From positions 16,293 to 80,292 of the IMG/VR virus record IMGVR_UViG_3300020473_000025: a stretch of DNA of 64,000 nucleotides. One strand, written 5' to 3'. Each line of letters opens with the position of its first letter. The stretch's first letter is position 1. Origin of the DNA: a virus. Shown here piece after piece: positions 9,372-45,721 of this stretch. The notes under the pieces are model-generated. The model ran no database searches and had not been told where the DNA came from. It saw only the letters and a list, made by a program, of their open reading frames with translations. A program made the position numbers and the translations under genes.

Positions 9372-10337
9372 ATGAGTAAACACACCTTAAGAATCTACGC
9401 GGCAGGCGGCTGCGCGACTAACTTAGCGAAGCCCTTTGTTGGTTTAGAATCGTCTGACATCTACGCTGATATCGATCCTGTTTTTGTAGACACTAGCATG
9501 TCTAACATCGAAGGACCTATCACTGAAGAAATGTGCTACATCCTACCTGACGTAGATGGCTCAGGTAAGGTACGTCGTGAAAACCACCAACGTATCTCTG
9601 ATTCGATCAAAGACATTGTGTCAATTCACCCTCCAGGTGACTTTAACATTGTTATGTTTTCAGCCGCAGGCGGTTCAGGTTCAGTAGCTGGACCATTGAT
9701 TGCTCGTCATCTTCTTGAAATTGAAGCACCATTGATCTGTATTGTAGTGGGTTCTACAGACTCTGCTATCACGTGTACTAACACACTTAATACACTGAAA
9801 TCATTAGATAGCATCTCACAAGCTGCAGAGCTACCTATCACGCTGTTCTACGAAGAGAACGGTGCTGGTGTTAAACGTTCAGAAATTGACAAGCGTGTTA
9901 AAGGCGCTATCGGTTCTATCAGCGCGTTGGTATCTGGTAACAACCGTGAGCTGGATACTAAAGACATTTCAACATGGGTGTATTACAACCGTGCGTCTAA
10001 AGTTGAACCACAACTAAGCCAGTTAGCTATTCTTCGTGACAACACAGCAGTAGAAGGTCTTAATGAACCTATCTCTATTGCTTCATTGTTAGCGGACCCT
10101 GACACGGTGATGCCTGAGGCCGCGCCCGATTATCAATGTATCGGTTATCATCGTGATCAGTCTGGTGAGATCCCTGACATGCACCTTGTGATTTCCGTGA
10201 ACGGCATTGAGCGTATCTACGAAGGTATTGCTAAAGCGCATGGTACTTACGAGAAGTCTACGTCTAAGCGTTCTCTAGACAGAAAGACTTTCGTCGGTGG
10301 TGGCGATCAAGTAACTAAAGATGGCATGGTGCTCTAA
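9372..10337 (+). CDS. phuZ: PhuZ-type phage tubulin
   Basis: Tubulin/FtsZ-family GTPase that forms the filament spindle centring the phage nucleus and carrying capsids in phiKZ relatives. The N-terminus has A-A-G-G-C-A-T-N, the first nucleotide-binding loop of the family. The glycine-rich T4 signature appears as S-A-A-G-G-S-G-S-V-A-G-P at about 97-108, a variant of G-G-G-T-G-S-G as in other PhuZ proteins. The length, 321 residues, is close to the phiKZ and 201phi2-1 proteins. The C-terminus is charged and flexible, as needed for the lateral contacts of PhuZ filaments. The gene stands alone between a divergent gap and a terminator at 10354. Confidence 0.85.
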   Translation: MSKHTLRIYAAGGCATNLAKPFVGLESSDIYADIDPVFVDTSMSNIEGPITEEMCYILPDVDGSGKVRRENHQRISDSIKDIVSIHPPGDFNIVMFSAAGGSGSVAGPLIARHLLEIEAPLICIVVGSTDSAITCTNTLNTLKSLDSISQAAELPITLFYEENGAGVKRSEIDKRVKGAIGSISALVSGNNRELDTKDISTWVYYNRASKVEPQLSQLAILRDNTAVEGLNEPISIASLLADPDTVMPEAAPDYQCIGYHRDQSGEIPDMHLVISVNGIERIYEGIAKAHGTYEKSTSKRSLDRKTFVGGGDQVTKDGMVL

Positions 10338-18664: not shown

Positions 18665-20533
18665 ATGGCTGTAAATAAAGATAACAAGTCTACTCCGTCT
18701 AACCCTGCTATGGCAGAAGCAATGAAAGAGTCAGGCGCGCAGCAAAGCCGTTCAACAAACCAAACCCAACCCAGTCGAGGAAGAAACGTGGAAGGTCCAA
18801 AATCCCTAGCCGGTCTTAATTCTTTATTCAGCAACCCAATGACGCGTAGCACTGCAGGCGAAGTCACTGGTGAGCTAACTCAAACGCTTCGTAAGATCCT
18901 ATCTTCAGAGCGCAACAGCGTACTTGAGAAAGTAACGATTGAACCTGTGGACGGCGATAGCCATTCACTAGCCCTTTCTGTAATTGTATTACAGTTCCCA
19001 TTCAACGAGCACGTTGCCTGCTATACCTACATTGTAGAAGGTTCTGGTGACGGTCTTGCAGATCGCGTTCCAACTATTGCCGGACAGCAAGTAAACATCA
19101 AGACTGTTCCTGGTGACGTATACGACGATAACATGTGGGAACAAGTTAACATGTATCTTCGCAGCAAGTACGGTAGTGAACGCAGCTTCATCGATGTTGG
19201 TGCTAACGTAATTCCACGTACAGTTACCGCTGACCATGAGAAAGAAATCCGCAGCCTGTTATACTTCGGTATCACTGCGTGTTACACTACTCTACTTAAA
19301 ATCAATGGCGATGCCAGCAACAGCATTAGCGTAGCTGATATCAACACCGGCGACGTACTAGCAGCGCAACTTCGCTACAATCCAGGCGACACACAAACGG
19401 CTGCTGGTCAAACTGTACGCTCAGATCTATCTATCGCACTACGCGGTATTATGCAGACAGGTGAAGCGGTATCTGCTAAGCAGACCATTCCACTAACCAC
19501 TGTTGATGGTTACATGGATCTAACTTACGTTCCACGTCAGCAACAACAAATGGCGTATGGTCAGCCTGTTGATCACCGTCAATACGTACCGCGTCTAGTA
19601 ATGACTAACGTATCTTCTGGTCTAAGCGTTAACACGCTAGAGCTTGAACTACTAGGTCTTTCTACTACGGTACTAGCAGCCCAGCACCACGCATGGGTTA
19701 AGTGCTTCAAGCCTGTATACGGTGCAAGCAAGAATGACATCCATGACATCGGTGCACTAGGCTTTGAAGTTGATTTCGCAAACAATGGCGAGTACGGTCG
19801 TATCTCTACTAAGAGCGATTCATTCTCAGACCAAAGTCTGTTTGAGCTAGTACAACGCAGCATGTACAACGAAGTACTGTTCTCTTGGGATATCCCTGAG
19901 ACAGGTGACCTAAGCTGGTTACAAGAAACGTTCCTAGCCGCAGCGGCTGGTAACAGCAAAGCAATTAACACTCTGTTCAATGCAGCAGATACGTTAACTG
20001 GTGGTGCGTTTACTCGTAACTACGACGGTGCTCCTCCTCTAATGAGTGAGATTACTCGTGTACATCTTGGTACTTACCTAGATGAAAACAATACTCTACG
20101 TGATCTACGTGATCTTGATTACCTAGCGATGCTAAACATCTACGGTGATAAAGACCTAGGTCTAGTTGAAGCATTTGGTAACACATACGACCAGACTGAT
20201 CGTCCTCAAGAACTACGTCTGGCAGAGCGTGCTAAAATCATCGAAGCTACACTAGGTGATACAGTAACCATCACTGGTTACGCACGTCGTGTTACATTCA
20301 ATCCTAAGTTCATTGAAGCGCTTGCTATGGCTTGTGCAGAAGCTGGACTTAAGATCCGCCCTGAGGGTATCTACGGTAACGACATGGGTGCCATTCGTGG
20401 TAACACGTCAGCTGTTGGTATGGGTATTGGTCAAAACGCCGGTGGTGCTGTCTTCCAACAAGGTGGTGCTAACTGGGGCGGTTCTGGTATGGGTTACGGT
20501 GCTCGTAACTCTGGTGGACTGTGGAACCGCTAA
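18665..20533 (+). CDS. chmA: Probable chimallin, major nuclear-shell protein
   Basis: Candidate for the protein that builds the lattice enclosing replicating phage DNA (phiKZ gp54, 201phi2-1 gp105). The 622-residue length fits. A polar, flexible N-terminal segment (about 1-60, Ser/Gln/Asn-rich) precedes a large globular part, and a Gly/Asn-rich tail (about 575-622) could be the C-terminal segment that ties subunits together. It lies immediately before the RNAP beta'-N gene, as gp54 lies before gp55 in phiKZ. Codon choice is strikingly uniform (GGT, CGT, CTA, AAC), the sign of a very highly expressed gene, and this also produces several empty antisense frames. Identity rests mainly on synteny, size and expression signs. 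Confidence 0.72.
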   Translation: MAVNKDNKSTPSNPAMAEAMKESGAQQSRSTNQTQPSRGRNVEGPKSLAGLNSLFSNPMTRSTAGEVTGELTQTLRKILSSERNSVLEKVTIEPVDGDSHSLALSVIVLQFPFNEHVACYTYIVEGSGDGLADRVPTIAGQQVNIKTVPGDVYDDNMWEQVNMYLRSKYGSERSFIDVGANVIPRTVTADHEKEIRSLLYFGITACYTTLLKINGDASNSISVADINTGDVLAAQLRYNPGDTQTAAGQTVRSDLSIALRGIMQTGEAVSAKQTIPLTTVDGYMDLTYVPRQQQQMAYGQPVDHRQYVPRLVMTNVSSGLSVNTLELELLGLSTTVLAAQHHAWVKCFKPVYGASKNDIHDIGALGFEVDFANNGEYGRISTKSDSFSDQSLFELVQRSMYNEVLFSWDIPETGDLSWLQETFLAAAAGNSKAINTLFNAADTLTGGAFTRNYDGAPPLMSEITRVHLGTYLDENNTLRDLRDLDYLAMLNIYGDKDLGLVEAFGNTYDQTDRPQELRLAERAKIIEATLGDTVTITGYARRVTFNPKFIEALAMACAEAGLKIRPEGIYGNDMGAIRGNTSAVGMGIGQNAGGAVFQQGGANWGGSGMGYGARNSGGLWNR

Positions 20534-21245: not shown

Positions 21246-22598
21246 ATGCAGGCTGATATCAGTGCGGTAGCTGACCCGACTAACGCACCCATCGATCAAC
21301 TTAAAGGTCCTATTAGTTGGAACTATGACGATCGACAAGGTGGTGTTCATCTGGCGCTAGAAGATCATGATAAGATCTTTAATAACCTGTCCAACCCCCC
21401 TATCATCGTCAATGACGTCAACACGCTGTCTCAGGAAGACAAACAGAAATTCAATGATCTAATATCTACGCGATACGAGGGTGATTCATTATCTATCGTA
21501 CCGTCGTGTGACTGTGGTGAATTATCAGGCGGTTATAACTTAGGTAAGGTTTGCGGTGTCTGTCAGACTGAAGTCCAGCAGTCTACAGAAAAGCGCATCG
21601 AGTCTACGTTATGGATGAAAGCACCGGATGGTGTTCATGGGTTTATTAACCCTAACGTCTGGTTGATGTTTGAGAAATACTTCTCAAGTAAGCAGTTGTG
21701 TCTTGTCGAGTGGTTGTGTAATCCTAACCTACGTTACGACAATGAGAAGAATGAGTCATTAAACCGCTTGAAGCGTTACAACTTTAAACGTGGCTATAAT
21801 AACTTCATTGAAAACTTTGACACAATAATGAATGCACTGTATGACATATTCGCTATACACAAGCGATTAGAGATACAAGACTTTAAAACCACGATGCGTA
21901 AGTATAGACATTGTCTATTTAGTCAATACGTGCCGGTGCCTTCTAAAGTCGCATTCGTAACAGAGAAAAACGATTCAACCGTTACCTCTGATACGCAGAC
22001 ATCGTTAGCGATGGATGCTATACGTACCATGTCGTCTATCAAACAGGCACTACGTCCTCTTATGCCTAAACAGCTAGAGAACCGTACCCTTAAGTGTGTT
22101 AAACAGCTTGCTGTCTATTATGAAGAAACTTACAAGACACGTCTTGCCTCTAAAGATGGTTTCATTCGTAAACACATGATATCAGGTAGATTGCATTATA
22201 CGGCACGTGCTGTTATTGTATCGTTGAGTGAACCCCACGAGTACGATGAGCTACATCTTCCATGGGGGTTATCGGTAGGATTACTACGTACGCACCTGAC
22301 TAATAAGTTGTTAAAGTTAGGGTATACGCCACGTGCTGCTGCTTGTCTATTGCAAGAGTCTATTAGCCGCTATCATCCACTTGTAGATACGCTGTTAAAT
22401 GAACTTATAGACGAGTCCCCGTGTCTATCGGAAATAGCAGAACACGAACTTACCATGCCTAAGAAGAAAGGTCTGTATGTAATCATCCAGCGTAACCCAT
22501 CACTACATAGACTGTCAGCACAGTTCATGCGGGTTACTAAGATCATTAAAGACCCTAGCATCCAGACTATATCAATGTCAGTATTATCATTGACTGGT
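21246..22598 (+). CDS. Non-virion RNA polymerase beta'-N subunit, exon 1
   Basis: First 451 codons of the phiKZ gp55-like N-terminal beta' part. A zinc-ribbon-like N-terminus (C-D-C-G-E-L-S-G-G-Y-N-L-G-K-V-C-G-V-C) is visible near residues 82-101, then the clamp region, then P-S-L-H-R-L near the end, matching the conserved P-x-L-H-R of beta' before the active-site loop. The frame continues 6 codons into the intron before stopping. I place the splice site after GGT at 22598, so that joining to 24322 gives T-G-N-N-A-A-D-F-D-G-D. The exact base is inferred from frame and from the usual U before / G at the end of group I introns. Total product about 520 residues. Confidence 0.85.
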
Positions 22599-22679
22599 CC
22601 CAACAGATTAGTTGCTTAAATAAAATGTAAAGAAAAAAGTACCTTAGCTATAGTATGAGATATAGTTGAGGAACTAAAA

Positions 22680-23915
22680 ATGAGTAAAGAAAATTGGAAA
22701 CCTGTCAAGGGTTTCAGAAATGTAGAATGTTCGTACGACGGTAAGGTTAGGACGTTTAAATTTGATCGATATGCTGGTAGCAAGATCTATCACTATCCGT
22801 CAATTAGAGAAACTCCAACATCTAAAGGTACTTATCTGACGGTGTCGGTGGTACCAGAAGATAAAGAACACTTTGTCACTGCGCTCGTCCATGTCCTCGT
22901 GGCTGAAGCCCACGTTGATAAACCAGATACTGATGAGTTATTAGAAGTTAACCATGAAGATGGGGATAAACATAATAACCACGCAGATAATCTGGAATGG
23001 ATGACACGCTCCGATAACCTTAAACACGCTTATAGGACAGGTCTTAGATCTGACTCTAGAGAAGTTAAGGTAGAAGATCTCGAAACAGGTGAGGTTCAAA
23101 CCTTCTACGCTATTGCTGAGTTTGCAAGAGCGTATGGATTAAGTGAGAACAAAGCATTAACCATCGCTAATGGATCAATGCGTCATCCGTGGAAAGGTCG
23201 TTATCGGATAACGATATCAGGCGACTTTACCGTCAGAAAGCAAAAACATGTTAAAGATCTTGTAGCTAAGGACTATGTAACTGGTGAATTGATAATAGCC
23301 GATTCTAGACTAAGTTTAGGGTTGATGTTAAAGATACATCCAGCTTCTATCACCTATCATCGCACCAGGCGACCTGATCAGCTTCTCGCTGGTTATGTAA
23401 TGCGTGAACTCGAAGAAGATATACAATGGCCTTCTTTTACTAAAGAAGAAGCCATAGCTTCTAGAGACGCGTATATGTGTCGGCCAAAAGCAAAGGATAA
23501 GCAGTTTGGCGTGGTGGTGAAAGACTACATAACTAATTCTGTTACAGAATATAAAGACATGGTGGAAGCAGAGAAAGCAACAGGCGTTAATCGTGGTACT
23601 ATTAGTTTTGTATTGCGTCGTGGATCAGACATGCCCTTTAAAGGTATGGTGTTTCGATATTTAGGTGATGATAAACCATGGCCTGAGTTTCCCGATGATG
23701 TGGTAGAAGTTCTACCTCTTGTCAAGAAACCAGAATACCCATTGGCTTATATTCACGATAAAGAGACAGATGAAACAACCCTGTATGCTTCCATTGCTGA
23801 CTTTGCGAGGCAGAACGGGTTTAATGCTGTCTCGGCGTCTAACGGCTTTAAGCAAAAGGGCGAGTTTAAAAACCGCTATAGCTATACTCCTCTACATTTA
23901 GAAACATTTATTTAA
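22680..23915 (+). CDS. Intron-encoded HNH homing endonuclease (411 aa)
   Basis: Cuts intron-less alleles to spread the intron. The N-terminus W-K-P-V-K-G-F...V-S-Y-D-G-type sequence is a NUMOD4 module. The HNH_3 core is L-V-H-V-L-V-A-E-A-H followed by E-V-N-H-E-D-G-D-K-H-N-N-H-A-D-N-L-E-W at about 98-117, with all key residues present. The remaining 270 residues hold about three NUMOD1-like DNA-reading repeats, each with a F-Y/L-Y-A-I/S-I-A-E/D-F-A-R or related segment (about 135-150, 285-300, 360-375). The extra length is due to these repeats. It has its own site GAGGAA, 8 bases before the ATG. Confidence 0.88.
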   Translation: MSKENWKPVKGFRNVECSYDGKVRTFKFDRYAGSKIYHYPSIRETPTSKGTYLTVSVVPEDKEHFVTALVHVLVAEAHVDKPDTDELLEVNHEDGDKHNNHADNLEWMTRSDNLKHAYRTGLRSDSREVKVEDLETGEVQTFYAIAEFARAYGLSENKALTIANGSMRHPWKGRYRITISGDFTVRKQKHVKDLVAKDYVTGELIIADSRLSLGLMLKIHPASITYHRTRRPDQLLAGYVMRELEEDIQWPSFTKEEAIASRDAYMCRPKAKDKQFGVVVKDYITNSVTEYKDMVEAEKATGVNRGTISFVLRRGSDMPFKGMVFRYLGDDKPWPEFPDDVVEVLPLVKKPEYPLAYIHDKETDETTLYASIADFARQNGFNAVSASNGFKQKGEFKNRYSYTPLHLETFI

Positions 23916-39116: not shown

Positions 39117-41177
39117 ATGTCCAATATTAATACATCCGAATTACATCCGGAGTTAATGGGTCTAGGTAATAACTTAGATTCATTTGGTAAACATAACTCA
39201 GCCTCTCGTAGAAAGATGTTCTCATCTCACTTGAGTCAGGCGTTGGTTATTGAGGGTTCGACCCCTAAGCGCATTCAAACAGGTGCTGAGCGTGAGCTTG
39301 GTAAATACACCAAAGCTATAAAGATGCCGGTTGATGCATCTATCATTAAAGTCATTCGGCGCTATCCTCGTCGACCCGGTGCTGATTCTATCAAAGAGAA
39401 TCCAGCCACGGCTATTATCTACGAAGATGTCAATACGCAGGAAGTTGATATCTTGATGGTTGAGAATTATTGCTCCGACCATAATACGTTTGGGTTCCAA
39501 TACTACCCTACAGCGGCAATGGAGAAAATCTACCCAGGAATGCAGGTTCCTAAGGGTACGGTGCTTGCTAAATCCAAGTCGCTTAAGGATGACGGTAACT
39601 ATGCTTATGGCTTAGAAGCAAACGTTGCCTATATGTCTTTACCAGCTACCATTGAGGATGGTTTTATTATCAGTGAGTCTATGGCGGAAAGACTTACTAC
39701 TACCATGACCGGTTCTCGTGTAGCTAGCTGGGGTAAAGAGTATTACCCGCTTAACTTGTACGGTGATGAAAACAATTACAAGCCATTCCCAGACATCGGT
39801 GATAAAATACGTGAAGATGGACTATTGTTCGCTCTGCGTAAATACGATCCAGCGCTTGGGATGGTAGAGATGACGCCTAGGGCGTTGATGACCCCAGACT
39901 ACACGTATGATAAACTAACGTATGTTTCACCTGCTGCAGGTGCGACGGTTTATGACGTCGTGGTTGATATGGATCACAACCTACCCTACAGCATTACACC
40001 TGTAGGGATGAATGCGCAGCCCGATAAGTACATGCGTCTGCGTGATCAGTTTTACGAATATATTTACAATGAATACCGTCGTCTTGCCAAACATCGTGGT
40101 AAGGGTCTTCAATTGTCAGGTAGATTTACTAACTGGGTAACACAGGCGATTGCTAATAAGCCTAATGCCTCGCCCCACAAGGTTACACGCAAGTATCGTT
40201 ACACCCCACTTGACGATCGTCGCGTAGAAATTAAATATGCGAAGAAAGTAAAAGCCACTAAAGGGTTTAAGCTTACTGATAGTTCAGGAAGTAAGGGCGT
40301 TGTAGTAGAAGTATGGGAGGATAGCCGACTACCTGTAGGTCAAAATGGTCTACGTGCAGATGTTATCATGGATCCTATCTCGCCGGTTAAGCGTATTAAC
40401 TTGTCTCAGCTATACGAGCAGTATGTTAATGCAACTAGCCACATGGTGACATGTGTGGTTAGAGATCTGATGAGTAAGGGTGAATACCAGAAAGCATGGG
40501 ATTATTTGAAAGAGTACTACAGTGTAGTATCGCCGCCAATGATTCAAACCATCAACGAGGTGCTAAATAACGATAACCGTATAATTACACACTTACACAC
40601 CATTGCTGCTACGGGTATTTATCTCTACCTTCCTGTGGATAGTATACACATTGGACCTAAATTAATCCAAGACCTCCGCACTAAGTTTCCAGTAGATATA
40701 CAGCCGGTTACTTATTCACCTGATGGTGTTAACCAGGTCACTACAATAGATCCTGTATTAATAGGGTCTAAGTACATGATGTTATTAGAAGCGGCACCAG
40801 ATAACTGGTCATCGGTCTCTACCGCTAAACTACAGCATCATGGCTTACCTGCTAAAGCATCTAAGAGCGACCGCTATGGTTCACCTAACCGTGAGCTACC
40901 TGTGCGTATCATGGGTGAGGATGAAGTTAGACTACTTAATGCTGCCCTAGGATCTGACGTAACTGCCGAACTGTTAGATGCGTCTGCATCGCCGTTAACA
41001 CAGAAAGCTATTATCCGTTCGATCCTTAACGCAGACCAACCGTCTAACATTAATCAAACTGTTAACCGTCGCAAACACCCACTGGGTAGAAGTCGACCAT
41101 TGGAATATGTAAACCACCTATTAAGCTGCGCAGGTGTTAAATTTGTAAGAGGGACGTACGATCATGAGAAAGTTTAA
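39117..41177 (+). CDS. Non-virion RNA polymerase beta-C subunit (686 aa)
   Basis: Corresponds to the C-terminal part of bacterial beta (phiKZ gp71-73). Seen in the sequence are a long hybrid-binding domain and K-G-F-K-L-T-D-S-S-G-S-K-G-V-V near residue 385, the counterpart of the beta G-D-K-x-x-x-R-H-G-N-K-G. It is followed by the segment V-G-Q-N-G-L-R-A-D-V-I-M-D-P-I-S-P-V-K-R-I-N, matching D-G-x-x-x-D-I-V-L-N-P-x-x-x-x-x-R-M-N of beta. R-K-Y-R-Y near 360 lines up with the other catalytic basic part. In phiKZ this gene is intron-split; here it is whole. It overlaps the beta'-C gene by 14 bases, so the two are made together. Confidence 0.88.
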   Translation: MSNINTSELHPELMGLGNNLDSFGKHNSASRRKMFSSHLSQALVIEGSTPKRIQTGAERELGKYTKAIKMPVDASIIKVIRRYPRRPGADSIKENPATAIIYEDVNTQEVDILMVENYCSDHNTFGFQYYPTAAMEKIYPGMQVPKGTVLAKSKSLKDDGNYAYGLEANVAYMSLPATIEDGFIISESMAERLTTTMTGSRVASWGKEYYPLNLYGDENNYKPFPDIGDKIREDGLLFALRKYDPALGMVEMTPRALMTPDYTYDKLTYVSPAAGATVYDVVVDMDHNLPYSITPVGMNAQPDKYMRLRDQFYEYIYNEYRRLAKHRGKGLQLSGRFTNWVTQAIANKPNASPHKVTRKYRYTPLDDRRVEIKYAKKVKATKGFKLTDSSGSKGVVVEVWEDSRLPVGQNGLRADVIMDPISPVKRINLSQLYEQYVNATSHMVTCVVRDLMSKGEYQKAWDYLKEYYSVVSPPMIQTINEVLNNDNRIITHLHTIAATGIYLYLPVDSIHIGPKLIQDLRTKFPVDIQPVTYSPDGVNQVTTIDPVLIGSKYMMLLEAAPDNWSSVSTAKLQHHGLPAKASKSDRYGSPNRELPVRIMGEDEVRLLNAALGSDVTAELLDASASPLTQKAIIRSILNADQPSNINQTVNRRKHPLGRSRPLEYVNHLLSCAGVKFVRGTYDHEKV

Positions 41178-43140
41178 TGTAAGAGAATTACAAAAGCTTA
41201 ACTCTGAAGAAATGTGGGCAATGGATGATGAGATATTTACTATTATCTTTGATGATGGTGAATTAGTTACCTCTACTCGTCCTACTATTCTAAGTCACTA
41301 CTACTGGGAAATGCAGCGTCATTTCCCAAATGCAACTATACTCAAGCGCCATCATATCGGCAACGGTCATTACACCCCTAAGCTTCATGAGGAGATCTTA
41401 AGTAATGTGTTGTTTGATACGTATTATGCGTTAAACGAAGTAGTTGACATCATGCTACTCAGTCGCATTGCTTATGAGATTACTAATAAACTTTACAACG
41501 ACGCGACCAGTCAACTAGCTGGGTTTGTATCAACGGTAAGTATTTTAGATTACATTGAGATACATAACCATCCAATAACCGCAAAAGTTAGGGATGAGTT
41601 TAAACCCAACGAACGGGCCATTGAACGTGGCTATGAACAGATTAAAGATCTACTGTATAAGAAAGAAGAAGAACTACCTAACAACAACGTTGCTGGGTTC
41701 TGTCATTCTAACGTCTTAAGCGTAGGTCAGATTGTTCAGTCGGTCGCAGCCCGTGGATTTGTAACAGATATCGATAGCCATATCCCGCCTAACCCAATCC
41801 CAACTAGCTACACAGAAGGGATGAATACGCTCCATGATTCGATGATTGAATCACGTTCAGGTTCCAAAGCATCGTTAGCACAGAAAGATCCACTGCAGAC
41901 TACGCAGTATTATAACCGCCGCATGCAGTTGGGTTGTGCGATAATACAAAATCTCCATAAAGGGGATTGTGGAACAACACGTACCGTGAAGTTCCGTGTA
42001 TTGCCACAAAGTGTCAAGGTGTTAGTAGGTAAATATTACTACGACAATGACAACGAGCTAAAGGTGTTCACGGGCGATGAAGATCATTTGATCGGTGAGA
42101 CAATTAAACTGCGTTCACCGCTTGCGTGTGAGCATCCAGACCCTTACGGCGTATGTAGTAAGTGTATGGGTACGGTGGCCGCATCGGTTCCACCAGGTGC
42201 TAATCTAGGTCACGTGGCGGCTGTAGAGCTATGTGCGGTTATCTCGCAAAGCGTACTCTCTATTAAACACTTAGAGGTAAGCTCCGTTGCGATTGAGATT
42301 AGTCTAGATGATCACCATCGTCGCTATCTGCGTCTCAATGCTAAAGGCGATAAGGTATTCATTAGAGATCAAGACCGATACGATCGTATGGAGTTGGTGC
42401 TTAATCACAACGATGTTAAACATATTGGTGATATTAACACAATTGAAGATATTACTGATCTATCATCAAGCCGTATTTCATCGTGTCGTGATATTGTACT
42501 TAATGGGTATCGTGGGGATGAGTTTGAAGATGTGTTATTGTCTGTGTCGTCAGGTAAGAACTATTCTTCACTATCGGGTGCAATGTTAAACTACTTGAAA
42601 GAACATGGCTGGTCTCTGAACGAGAAAGGGTTCTATGTTTGTGACCTTAGTCATTGGGACTTCAATGAACCTGCGTTTATTCTTCCAATGAAACACATGA
42701 ACATGTTGGAGTATATGGATGTCATTAAGACATTTATTGAATCATCAAGTTCGCAGGAAGATAAAAGCGCAAGCATGTCTAGCCGTACAACGAAGAAGCC
42801 TAGAGATGATAAGCGTAGCCGTATCGTTAATTGCGATTCATTGTCTCAAGCTTTGATGGACTTACATGTGTTGGTGTCTGAAAAGTTGGGTGTTAACGTG
42901 GTGCATCTGGAAATTATCATCCTGTCAATTTTAGCACGCGACCCTGATCGTATGGATCACCGTCTGCCGCGTCCTCAAGATCAAAAGGTCTTTGGAACGT
43001 ATAAGCAGAATATGGAACTTAGATCGTTAACAGGCCAGGCTGCATGGATGAACCAGGCACAGATGATGATATCACCAACGTCGTTTGCTCTGACTAATCG
43101 ACCTAAGCATCCAATGGATACGGTGTTCATGGGTAAATAA
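41164..43140 (+). CDS. Non-virion RNA polymerase beta'-C subunit (658 aa)
   Basis: C-terminal part of beta' (phiKZ gp74). The bridge-helix and trigger-loop region is visible as E-S-R-S-G-S-K-A-S-L-A-Q-K-D-P near 236, like the S-G-A-R-G-S of beta'. Then follow C-E-H-P-D-P-Y-G-V-C-S-K-C-M-G near 325-340 with a Cys cluster that could bind zinc, and L-C-A-V-I-S-Q-S-V-L-S-I-K-H near 364, equivalent to the G-x-I-A-A-Q-S-I-G-E-P helix of beta'. It pairs with the beta'-N gene at 21246 to complete beta'. The matching beta-N part (gp123 in phiKZ) is not in this window. Confidence 0.88.
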   Translation: MRKFNVRELQKLNSEEMWAMDDEIFTIIFDDGELVTSTRPTILSHYYWEMQRHFPNATILKRHHIGNGHYTPKLHEEILSNVLFDTYYALNEVVDIMLLSRIAYEITNKLYNDATSQLAGFVSTVSILDYIEIHNHPITAKVRDEFKPNERAIERGYEQIKDLLYKKEEELPNNNVAGFCHSNVLSVGQIVQSVAARGFVTDIDSHIPPNPIPTSYTEGMNTLHDSMIESRSGSKASLAQKDPLQTTQYYNRRMQLGCAIIQNLHKGDCGTTRTVKFRVLPQSVKVLVGKYYYDNDNELKVFTGDEDHLIGETIKLRSPLACEHPDPYGVCSKCMGTVAASVPPGANLGHVAAVELCAVISQSVLSIKHLEVSSVAIEISLDDHHRRYLRLNAKGDKVFIRDQDRYDRMELVLNHNDVKHIGDINTIEDITDLSSSRISSCRDIVLNGYRGDEFEDVLLSVSSGKNYSSLSGAMLNYLKEHGWSLNEKGFYVCDLSHWDFNEPAFILPMKHMNMLEYMDVIKTFIESSSSQEDKSASMSSRTTKKPRDDKRSRIVNCDSLSQALMDLHVLVSEKLGVNVVHLEIIILSILARDPDRMDHRLPRPQDQKVFGTYKQNMELRSLTGQAAWMNQAQMMISPTSFALTNRPKHPMDTVFMGK

Positions 43141-43159
43141 AACAATAAAGGAGGGCATC

Positions 43160-45721
43160 GTGCCAACTCAGTATTACGCACATGTGGATGTAAAAAGTCA
43201 CCATGTACGGTTCCACACCATGATGCCAGAGTGTAAACGCGCCCTCTATGATTATTGCGAGCGGTTAATCGATTATGACCAAGGGTACGATCCTCGTACC
43301 CATAGTTACTATAAGATACCTAAGCGTGTCTTTGCCGCATCACCGCATGATCGTAGAGAGCTGCGTTTCCATATTAACCAGTATAAAGATATACTTACAC
43401 ACCTTAACGTAAAGGGAATCAAAACCGAACAATTATTAATCGAGCACTTTACTCCGGTAGAGGGTGATGATGTTACTAGTTTTGTAATAGACGACGACAT
43501 TCAACCCTACGAGTACCAATTGCCAGTTATTGACCATTTCCTTACACCCGGTGTGAGTAAGATAACCAATGCGCCAACGGGTAGTGGTAAGATGCAACCA
43601 TTAGACAGTCTAATTAAGATACCTGGTGGTTGGAAACAAATGGGAGATATACAGGTAGGAGATAAGATCACAGCACCTGACGGTCACGACACTTTTGTAA
43701 ATGGCGTATTCCCTCAAGGGAAAATGCAGATTTATAAAGTTACGTTTGCAGATGGTCGATCAACTGAGGTTGGAGGTGAACATCTTTGGAAAATGTTTAT
43801 TGCTAACTACCATGATGCTGATAAGCGGTGGCGTATCGGTGATACCTTTGAGATGATGCGTGAACTTAAACGCTCACAGCCTAGAGTATATATACCGTTA
43901 ATCCAGCCTGAGCAGGGTGAATACAAAGAACTGCCCATTCATCCATGGACACTCGGTGCTATGTTGGGTGACGGTTGTTTTACTACCACGCCCCCCACAT
44001 TCACTACTACCTATGTAGATATTTTCCATAAGCTATCAACATTGTTACCAGAACACGTCACATTAAGTTGTGGTGCAAACGGGCGAACTATTGGTTTTGG
44101 AAACAGCCATGTGTTTAGAGATTACTTCAAACACTTAGGACTATGGGGCTGTCGTTCCGCTGATAAATTCATCCCTAAGATGTATTTAGAAGCTTCCGTA
44201 GAGCAGCGCTATGCGTTACTCCAGGGTTTAATGGATACCGATGGAGGTATTGATGTTAATTCATCCATGGACTACTCAAGTGTGTCTGAACAACTGGCCA
44301 AGGACGTTCAATACTTAGTCAGAAGTCTAGGGGGGATTGCAAAACTATCTAAGCGTCAAACCCACTATACCTATAAAGGAGAAAGGAAACCTGGCCAACC
44401 TAGCTTTAGAGTTAACATTCGCCATCCTAAACCATCTTCATTGTTTACTGTCCCTCATAAACTCGAAAGAGCCAATGACAACAGTCAGTATGCTAAGGGA
44501 TTGAAGTTAAGAGTGGTGAATGTAGAGCCATCCCGAATGGCAGATGCGCAGTGTATATCGGTTACACACAAGGATCATCTTTACGTAACTGATGATTTTG
44601 TGGTTACTCATAATACCATGATGTCTTTATATTCTACATGGATGATAAAGAAAAGAACCATCCTGGTTGTGCCTGCTAAGTACATCACCGAAGGTAAATG
44701 GATTGGTGATATCACTAAGACATTAAATGTACCTAGGGAAAAACTGTGTGTGGTGAAAGGATCTAAAGCCATGCGGGCGCTTATCGATTTAGGATTAGCA
44801 GATGCCTTGGAATATGATTTTATCATTATATCAGCGACTACCATGTATAACTTCTACAAGGCGTATGAGGAAGGAAAGCTGGAGGAAGAAGGGTATAACT
44901 GCGACCCCGATGAATTGTACACGGTTACTAAAACAGGGCTACGCGTAATAGATGAAGTGCATGAGAACTTCCATCTCAACTTTACGCAGGATCTGTACGG
45001 TCATGTGGCTAAGACGATTTACATGTCAGCGACGTTAGTTTCTGATAATGCTTTCATTAATTCAATGTTAGAAGTTGCCTATCCTGTTGGCGAACGTATA
45101 ACACCGGATTATGATGGCAAATATATCGCCTGTACAGCCCTCACATACCGTTGTAACAAGGTAGAGCTACTATCGCATAAGCGACGTAAGATGTACTCTC
45201 AGATGCTCTTTGAGGCGTCTATATTGAAGAAGAAGTTTCGTAGTGAAGCTTACGCTGAAATGATCTATGATATCGTGCTTAATGAATACATCAGTATCCG
45301 TGAGCCGGGGCAGAAGATGATGATCTTTGCCGATACCATAGAGATGTGTACCTATCTAACATCGTTTATAAAGCCACGTTTGACTGACTTAACTGTCAAT
45401 AGGTTTGTGGGTGAGGATCCAGATGAGTATCTTTATGAATCTGATGTAATCATTACTACACCTAAGTCTGCAGGTACTGCGGTAGATATCAAAGGACTTA
45501 AAGTTACCTTACTGACATCTGCAATTGGCTCACGTCAATTAAACGCGCAGATACTGGGTCGTTTGAGAAAGCTAAGAGGTTTTGAAGATAACGTACCACG
45601 TTTCTTCTACTTAGTTTGCGAGGATATAGATTCTCATGTTAAGTACCATGAAAGAAAACTTGCTACTTTCTCAGATAAAGTTAAAACTCACCGTACGCTG
45701 CAAACTGCGTATGTGCTATAA
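43160..45721 (+). CDS. SF2 helicase interrupted by an intein in Walker A (853 aa precursor)
   Basis: GTG start with AAAGGAGGG. The extein parts form a UvsW-like DNA helicase of about 512 residues. Q-P-Y-E-Y-Q-L-P (Q motif) precedes N-A-P-T-G-S-G-K at 137-144, then the intein (145-485), then T-M-M-S-L-Y to finish Walker A as G-S-G-K-T. Next come R-V-I-D-E-V-H (DEVH Walker B), Y-M-S-A-T-L (motif III), A-G-T-A-V-D-I (motif V) and Q-I-L-G-R-L-R-K-L (motif VI). It would act in branch migration or replication initiation. Splicing is needed for ATP binding, so activity depends on the intein. It follows the RNAP genes by 19 bases. Confidence 0.88.
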   Translation: MPTQYYAHVDVKSHHVRFHTMMPECKRALYDYCERLIDYDQGYDPRTHSYYKIPKRVFAASPHDRRELRFHINQYKDILTHLNVKGIKTEQLLIEHFTPVEGDDVTSFVIDDDIQPYEYQLPVIDHFLTPGVSKITNAPTGSGKMQPLDSLIKIPGGWKQMGDIQVGDKITAPDGHDTFVNGVFPQGKMQIYKVTFADGRSTEVGGEHLWKMFIANYHDADKRWRIGDTFEMMRELKRSQPRVYIPLIQPEQGEYKELPIHPWTLGAMLGDGCFTTTPPTFTTTYVDIFHKLSTLLPEHVTLSCGANGRTIGFGNSHVFRDYFKHLGLWGCRSADKFIPKMYLEASVEQRYALLQGLMDTDGGIDVNSSMDYSSVSEQLAKDVQYLVRSLGGIAKLSKRQTHYTYKGERKPGQPSFRVNIRHPKPSSLFTVPHKLERANDNSQYAKGLKLRVVNVEPSRMADAQCISVTHKDHLYVTDDFVVTHNTMMSLYSTWMIKKRTILVVPAKYITEGKWIGDITKTLNVPREKLCVVKGSKAMRALIDLGLADALEYDFIIISATTMYNFYKAYEEGKLEEEGYNCDPDELYTVTKTGLRVIDEVHENFHLNFTQDLYGHVAKTIYMSATLVSDNAFINSMLEVAYPVGERITPDYDGKYIACTALTYRCNKVELLSHKRRKMYSQMLFEASILKKKFRSEAYAEMIYDIVLNEYISIREPGQKMMIFADTIEMCTYLTSFIKPRLTDLTVNRFVGEDPDEYLYESDVIITTPKSAGTAVDIKGLKVTLLTSAIGSRQLNAQILGRLRKLRGFEDNVPRFFYLVCEDIDSHVKYHERKLATFSDKVKTHRTLQTAYVL
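43592..44614 (+). mobile_element. Intein with class 3 (WCT) features and LAGLIDADG endonuclease
   Basis: 341 residues (145-485 of the precursor) inserted between K144 and T486 of Walker A. It starts Met-Gln-Pro-Leu, so it has no Cys or Ser at position 1. Block A continues I-P-G-G-W-K-Q-M-G-D-I-Q-V-G-D-K. Block B ends G-G-E-H-L-W with Trp210. The endonuclease motifs are L-G-A-M-L-G-D-G and L-L-Q-G-L-M-D-T-D-G-G. Block F reads Q-C-I-S-V-T-H with Cys465, and block G V-V-T-H-N with Thr483 and Asn485; +1 residue is Thr. Trp, Cys and Thr at these places are the WCT set that defines class 3 inteins, which splice through the block F cysteine. Confidence 0.88.

Follow-up and report, generated by a model that had tools for sequence, protein, structure and literature searches.

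Class 3 inteins are defined by a first position that carries no nucleophile, by a Trp at block position B:12, a Cys at F:4 and a Thr at G:5 (the WCT set), and by Ser or Thr at the +1 position of the C-extein (PMC5222942, PMC3196547, PMC5050341). The +1 residue is never Cys (PMC5222942). Two members of the class, Mycobacterium smegmatis DnaBi1 (6bs8) and M. chimaera DnaB1 (6rix), have been both solved and tested. The structure paper on 6rix names His65, Trp67, Cys124 and Thr143 as the catalytic set and WCT motif (PMC7664689), and roles of the catalytic residues have also been described elsewhere (PMC6195587). M. smegmatis DnaBi1 is inserted in a P-loop, and its redox switch requires Cys48 (PMC6195587). 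Both inteins are mini-inteins in DnaB, with Ala at position 1 and Ser at +1. Other class 3 inteins occur in mycobacteriophages (TerL types and the Catera Gp206-type), and these also contain LAGLIDADG motifs.

The locus reported here lies in a stretch of 64,000 nucleotides (the window) taken from an 80,292-base virus contig, IMG/VR record IMGVR_UViG_3300020473_000025. Because the window encodes both a nuclear shell protein and a PhuZ tubulin, the phage is, judging by gene content, a nucleus-forming, phiKZ-like jumbo phage. The window also holds two DNA polymerase-type genes, a terminase and several RNA polymerase pieces. The genes relevant to this report are as follows.

9372-10337: PhuZ tubulin (phrog_4733).
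18665-20533: nuclear shell protein, ChmA/PhuN type (phrog_4795, 1.9e-102).
22680-23915: HNH endonuclease gene (phrog_59, 3.8e-42), which immediately follows an RNA polymerase piece (21246-22619).
41164..43140, + strand: phage multisubunit RNA polymerase beta'-type subunit, the upstream neighbor of the intein-bearing gene (phrog_3015, 6e-184).

The HNH gene next to the RNA polymerase piece prompted the idea of an intron there, which was dropped: a search with Rfam found no RNA family, and hence no intron, in the window, and homologues of the polymerase piece align over nearly its whole length. The HNH gene is probably a free-standing homing-type gene.

The gene of interest is an open reading frame at 43160-45721 (+ strand) that begins with GTG, just 3' of a GGAGGG at 43150-43155, and encodes a precursor of 853 amino acids. 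A phrog_16 DNA helicase match spans residues 548-834 of the whole frame. An insert of 341 amino acids (residues 145-485, bases 43592-44614) splits the Walker A motif into GSGK and T, such that the precursor reads ITNAPTGSGK / MQPLDSLIKIPGGW ... VVTHN / TMMSLYS. An earlier reading of this DNA, made from the sequence only, had placed a 341-residue insert within the helicase Walker A motif at exactly these coordinates. It had also proposed looking for an intein-free homologue in a sister phage, and contig IMGVR_UViG_3300001106_000002 (L029) supplies one. The L029 helicase runs uninterrupted through ITNAQTGSGK-TACSLF, and its C-extein is 83% identical to that of the window. In a BLAST alignment with L029, query residues 1-144 and then 486-853 are matched, with zero residues between them. 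Since the vacant protein passes directly from Lys to Thr, intein residue 1 is Met and the +1 residue is Thr. The empty allele therefore agrees with the earlier coordinates, confirms that the insert is real and fixes both its borders. It also shows that intein residue 1 is neither Cys nor Ser, either of which the earlier reading had named as grounds for abandoning its class assignment. The features of the gene, all on the + strand, are listed below.

43160..43591, + strand: N-extein, residues 1-144 of an SF2 (UvsW-like) helicase, ending in GSGK, the first half of Walker A (open reading frame; phrog_16; contiguous in L029).
43592..44614, + strand: class 3 intein of 341 amino acids, Met1 to Asn341 (assigned from alignments, the empty allele and a structure model).
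43781..43789, + strand: block B His64 (B:10), Leu65 and Trp66 (B:12) (6rix alignment; invariant or near invariant in alignment A1).
43889..44446, + strand: LAGLIDADG homing endonuclease domain, about residues 100-285 (Pfam LAGLIDADG_3; Foldseek matches to PI-SceI and I-DmoI).
43952..43975, + strand: LAGLIDADG motif 1, LGAMLGDG, with acidic Asp127 (sequence, alignment).
44216..44245, + strand: LAGLIDADG motif 2, LLQGLMDTDG, with acidic Asp217 (sequence, alignment).
44552..44554, + strand: Cys321 (F:4), predicted first nucleophile (6rix Cys124; 155 of 155 related inteins).
44606..44614, + strand: block G Thr339 (G:5), His340 and Asn341 (6rix Thr143-His144-Asn145; invariant in A1).
44615..44617, + strand: +1 Thr, which serves as C-extein nucleophile and, after splicing, as the Thr of the helicase Walker A motif (+1 Thr or Ser in all relatives).
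44615..45721, + strand: C-extein, the remaining SF2 helicase with the DEVH box and later helicase motifs (open reading frame, phrog match).

Homology models detect little of this element. The sole Pfam match above cut-off is LAGLIDADG_3 (2.4e-9), and the intein C-terminal model TIGR01443 scores 15.0 bits against a cut-off of 15.6. With this second model falling 0.6 bit short, HMM libraries alone would nearly overlook the intein.

Alignment to solved inteins is more informative. With phmmer, the insert aligns to both 6bs8 and 6rix, and the catalytic set is matched residue for residue: His64, Trp66, Cys321 and Thr339 pair with His65, Trp67, Cys124 and Thr143 of 6rix. The residues that the sequence-only reading quoted as Trp210, Cys465 and Thr483 of the open reading frame are intein Trp66, Cys321 and Thr339, and in the alignment to class 3 inteins that it had suggested they do fall on the WCT residues. 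Its call of a class 3 intein with Met at position 1 is thus correct. Every component of the signature is present: Met1 rather than Cys, Ser or Thr at the border set by L029, His64 at B:10, Trp66 at B:12, Cys321 at F:4, Thr339 at G:5, Asn341 at G:7 and Thr at +1. Salmonella phage Ent3 provides a useful contrast. At the equivalent helicase P-loop site it carries a class 1 intein that starts with Cys and has neither the Trp nor the block F Cys, and so the alignment does tell the classes apart. Class 3 inteins are reported to be monophyletic. In a tree, the window intein groups with WCT inteins, the class 1 outgroup being only one very long branch. Its one firm connection is with its own family of four rows; the link to other helicase P-loop inteins is looser.

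The earlier reading had seen two LAGLIDADG motifs in the insert and taken them to suggest that it can still home. The motifs do look functional: each retains its acidic residue, and both Pfam and Foldseek recover the LAGLIDADG fold. An AlphaFold model built from only six sequences (pLDDT 83, pTM 0.78) was compared with known structures by using Foldseek. TliVMA and PI-SceI match its entire length; 6bs8, 6rix and 6riy match the splicing domain, and I-DmoI matches the endonuclease. The predicted architecture is therefore a Hint domain with a two-motif LAGLIDADG endonuclease.

Compared with the mycobacterial DnaB inteins, the window intein shares the WCT residues, the block B His, the Hint fold and, with DnaBi1, the P-loop location. 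It differs in its length, in Met1 and Thr+1, in its host protein and in lacking the redox partner Cys48 of DnaBi1. The mycobacteriophage inteins share the signature and LAGLIDADG motifs at about 30-33% identity, but differ in host protein and insertion site. A closer counterpart is found in Pseudomonas phage EL (NC_007623 gp040), with the same SF2 helicase, gene order, insertion between Lys and Thr, full WCT set and Thr+1. The EL intein also begins with Met (GFGK / MQPLYAKIKVPGGW). However, it is a mini-intein of 248 amino acids, 44% identical to the window intein, in which the region of the first LAGLIDADG motif is deleted. Phages LucasX, Rebecca, Proteus phage 10, AerS_266, FishSpeaker, JN03 and Kwan have full-length inteins with an endonuclease, WCT and Thr+1 at the same site of the same helicase family; these are 42-47% identical to the window intein and have Ala, Leu or Val at position 1. 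Most of them are annotated merely as helicase or terminase.

WCT inteins at this Lys/Thr junction also occur in AhC3_1, PS1, VP4B, KpXa_1 and others. The inteins of EL, AhC3_1, PS1, VP4B and KpXa_1 have a truncated endonuclease part or none, and keep the splicing residues. In these phages, as in the window, the helicase follows an RNA polymerase subunit gene, and this gene order is seen in LucasX, Rebecca, SL2, EL and others. P-loop class 3 inteins thus turn up repeatedly in this helicase among nucleus-forming jumbo phages; the kind is well known, and the site is not unusual. The P-loop was readable in 44 IMG/VR helicases (a count that includes duplicates of one virus); 17 are filled and 27 are empty, all at the same point. 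Similar sequence outside this helicase occurs in 755 of 50,697 phage records.

The IMG/VR scan used narrower alignments (A2 and A3) and patterns without the motif W, C and T. Among the 75 loci it covered, Trp was present in 74 of 74, and Cys and Thr each in 75 of 75; Ala predominated at position 1 (59), where Met was rare (3), and +1 was Thr or Ser. Bacterial loci (n = 80, mostly with an SMGK P-loop) carried His, Trp, Cys and Thr in every case, with Ala at position 1 in 76, although the Thr count is not independent because the scan pattern contained THN. By sequence comparison, the WCT triplet is essentially invariant across about 155 relatives. Homologues at the helicase site, from isolated phages as well as contigs, have WCT, the block B His and the penultimate His-Asn too.

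A few relatives have a potential nucleophile at position 1. Contig IMGVR_UViG_3300035661_000011 (L115:3498-4544) has an intein in the same helicase family and P-loop site with the full WCT set plus Cys1 (GMGK / CQPLYS). Because it nests among Ala1 and Leu1 helicase inteins (clade support 98/80), this Cys looks regained, and the intein might splice by either route. L115 is a single contig, and no second full example of Cys1 with WCT was found. Ser1 occurs in WCT inteins of three other IMG/VR contigs (L098, L113 and L159), of a bacterial contig (L245) and of phage phiRU (L040). The phiRU intein (AAGK / SQTLSS...VTHN / S) lies in the RNA polymerase subunit gene that immediately precedes the helicase gene, and such phages can therefore hold two neighboring inteins.

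Annotation of these genes is inconsistent. Public records name the intein-bearing helicase terminase large subunit, DnaB, DarB-like antirestriction protein or homing endonuclease, probably because the intein drives the database match. In Serratia phage 2050HW (L013:1354-3916) the helicase is annotated as two genes split within the intein, and phage Haymo matches the split region in one piece. The split in 2050HW may therefore be genuine or result from a sequencing error.

Several observations bear on whether the element is maintained and mobile. Comparison of the window with three related alleles (L002, L004 and L006) gives a dN/dS of 0.03-0.04 for the endonuclease and of 0.04-0.05 for both the splicing domain and the C-extein, with the L006 comparison near saturation at synonymous sites. 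The intein reading frame is open in four distinct alleles. These low ratios in both domains argue for, and fit, a working element in which both activities are kept. Purifying selection acts on the endonuclease just as it does on the splicing domain, which is expected if the element is mobile. Filled and empty alleles also occur in close relatives: the N- and C-extein DNA of Erwinia phages Rebecca (filled) and Simmy50 (empty) is 98.7% identical, and the two differ by the entire intein. The helicase of phage MadMel is empty as well. The Simmy50 allele has Ser where Rebecca has the +1 Thr; either could serve.

L002 and L004, two alleles from the group to which the window belongs, hardly differ over 6.7 kb outside a single tract: 37 of their 74 differences fall in intein bases 307-654. 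This tract is confined to the endonuclease, and 2000 random placements gave at most 17 differences per 400-base span. The endonuclease part has thus been exchanged on its own. We also considered the higher divergence of the intein as a mark of homing, as dS between the window and L002 or L004 is 0.46-0.51 in the intein and 0.06-0.11 in the exteins. This argument was dropped: equal peaks occur at other genes of the locus (for example, near 40915 and 46465) and indicate general phage mosaicism, so the raised dS carries no weight as evidence of homing.

We conclude that the insert is, with little doubt, a class 3 intein of full length, very probably active, and that it behaves as a selfish mobile element. 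The analysis directly shows its exact borders, its complete catalytic set, the two folds (Hint and LAGLIDADG), purifying selection, the existence of both empty and filled alleles, and regional recombination. By analogy with class 3 inteins that have been studied, we infer that its splicing chemistry, cutting and homing are the same. Cys321 of block F would attack the Lys144-Met145 bond of the 853-residue precursor and hold the N-extein as a branched thioester. Thr+1 would then take over the N-extein from Cys321, Asn341 would cyclize to release the intein, and an acyl shift would leave a continuous GSGKT Walker A in a helicase of 512 amino acids. Once free, the intein would act as a LAGLIDADG endonuclease; where a relative with an intein-less, L029-like helicase allele co-infects, it would cut that allele at the codons for Walker A. 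The L029 allele gives the candidate target site. After cutting, recombination would copy the intein into the empty allele.

The alternative that survives best, though improbable, is that the endonuclease serves the phage as a competition weapon that harms intein-less co-infecting relatives, as the PhiPA3 intron endonuclease does. The window phage is of the nucleus-forming type, with ChmA and PhuZ, and in such a phage an intron homing endonuclease was shown to interfere with a co-infecting relative (PMC11620839, PMC12908238). Purifying selection on the endonuclease and the existence of the empty L029 target are also as expected of a weapon. However, plain homing accounts for the same facts, and mini-inteins without an endonuclease persist at the same site in EL, PS1, VP4B and KpXa_1. 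There is also a slim chance that the unspliced helicase precursor carries the endonuclease through the import gate of the phage nucleus, where splicing would deliver both helicase and homing endonuclease.

Less probable still is that the intein is kept because its splicing is regulated and controls access of ATP to the helicase (conditional protein splicing); the sequence-only reading had suggested that the insertion could gate helicase activity. The insertion does part Lys from Thr of Walker A, and this location makes ATP binding before splicing implausible, as that reading held; the role of Walker A implies as much, as does a precedent in RadA (cited in PMC6195587). Splicing of the M. smegmatis DnaB P-loop class 3 intein is reversibly blocked by oxidation (PMC6195587), and zinc blocks DnaB splicing (PMC7360933). 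Nonetheless, the gating claim itself is unsupported. Occupancy is patchy among close relatives, as the IMG/VR counts, Rebecca versus Simmy50 and MadMel, and the window versus L029 illustrate, and the endonuclease is selected as expected of a mobile element. The disulfide partner Cys48 of DnaBi1 is Tyr48 in the window intein, which has no second Cys able to pair with the catalytic one in the DnaBi1 manner; its others (129, 160 and 187) lie in the endonuclease. Inteins of bacteria, archaea and phages are classically found between the Lys and Thr of P-loops (PMC5050341), and hence the site needs no regulatory reason. Homing into conserved codons accounts for both the patchy occupancy and the preference for P-loops across ATPases.

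Decay to a non-splicing intein in a pseudogene has a precedent in the Arth_1007 intein (PMC3196547), but is very hard to reconcile with complete catalytic residues, four open alleles and dN/dS of 0.03-0.05 in intein and exteins. Splicing by a class 1 or class 2 route is equally improbable: the later steps are common to all Hint domains, but Met1 excludes the class 1 route (the Ent3 class 1 intein has its Cys1), and the full WCT set with Thr+1 is that of class 3, class 2 having been found only in KlbA (PMC3196547).

In nucleus-forming phages, mobile endonucleases have been studied as weapons, and a review makes no mention of inteins (PMC12908238). The PhiPA3 intron endonuclease weapon (PMC11620839, PMC12908238) raises the question of where splicing takes place relative to the phage nucleus. 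If import of the unspliced precursor proved true, the intein would be using its host protein as an entry ticket to the nucleus, and could act against intein-less rivals that share the compartment. Together with its matching empty counterpart on the related phage contig L029, the window intein makes a useful pair for homing tests.
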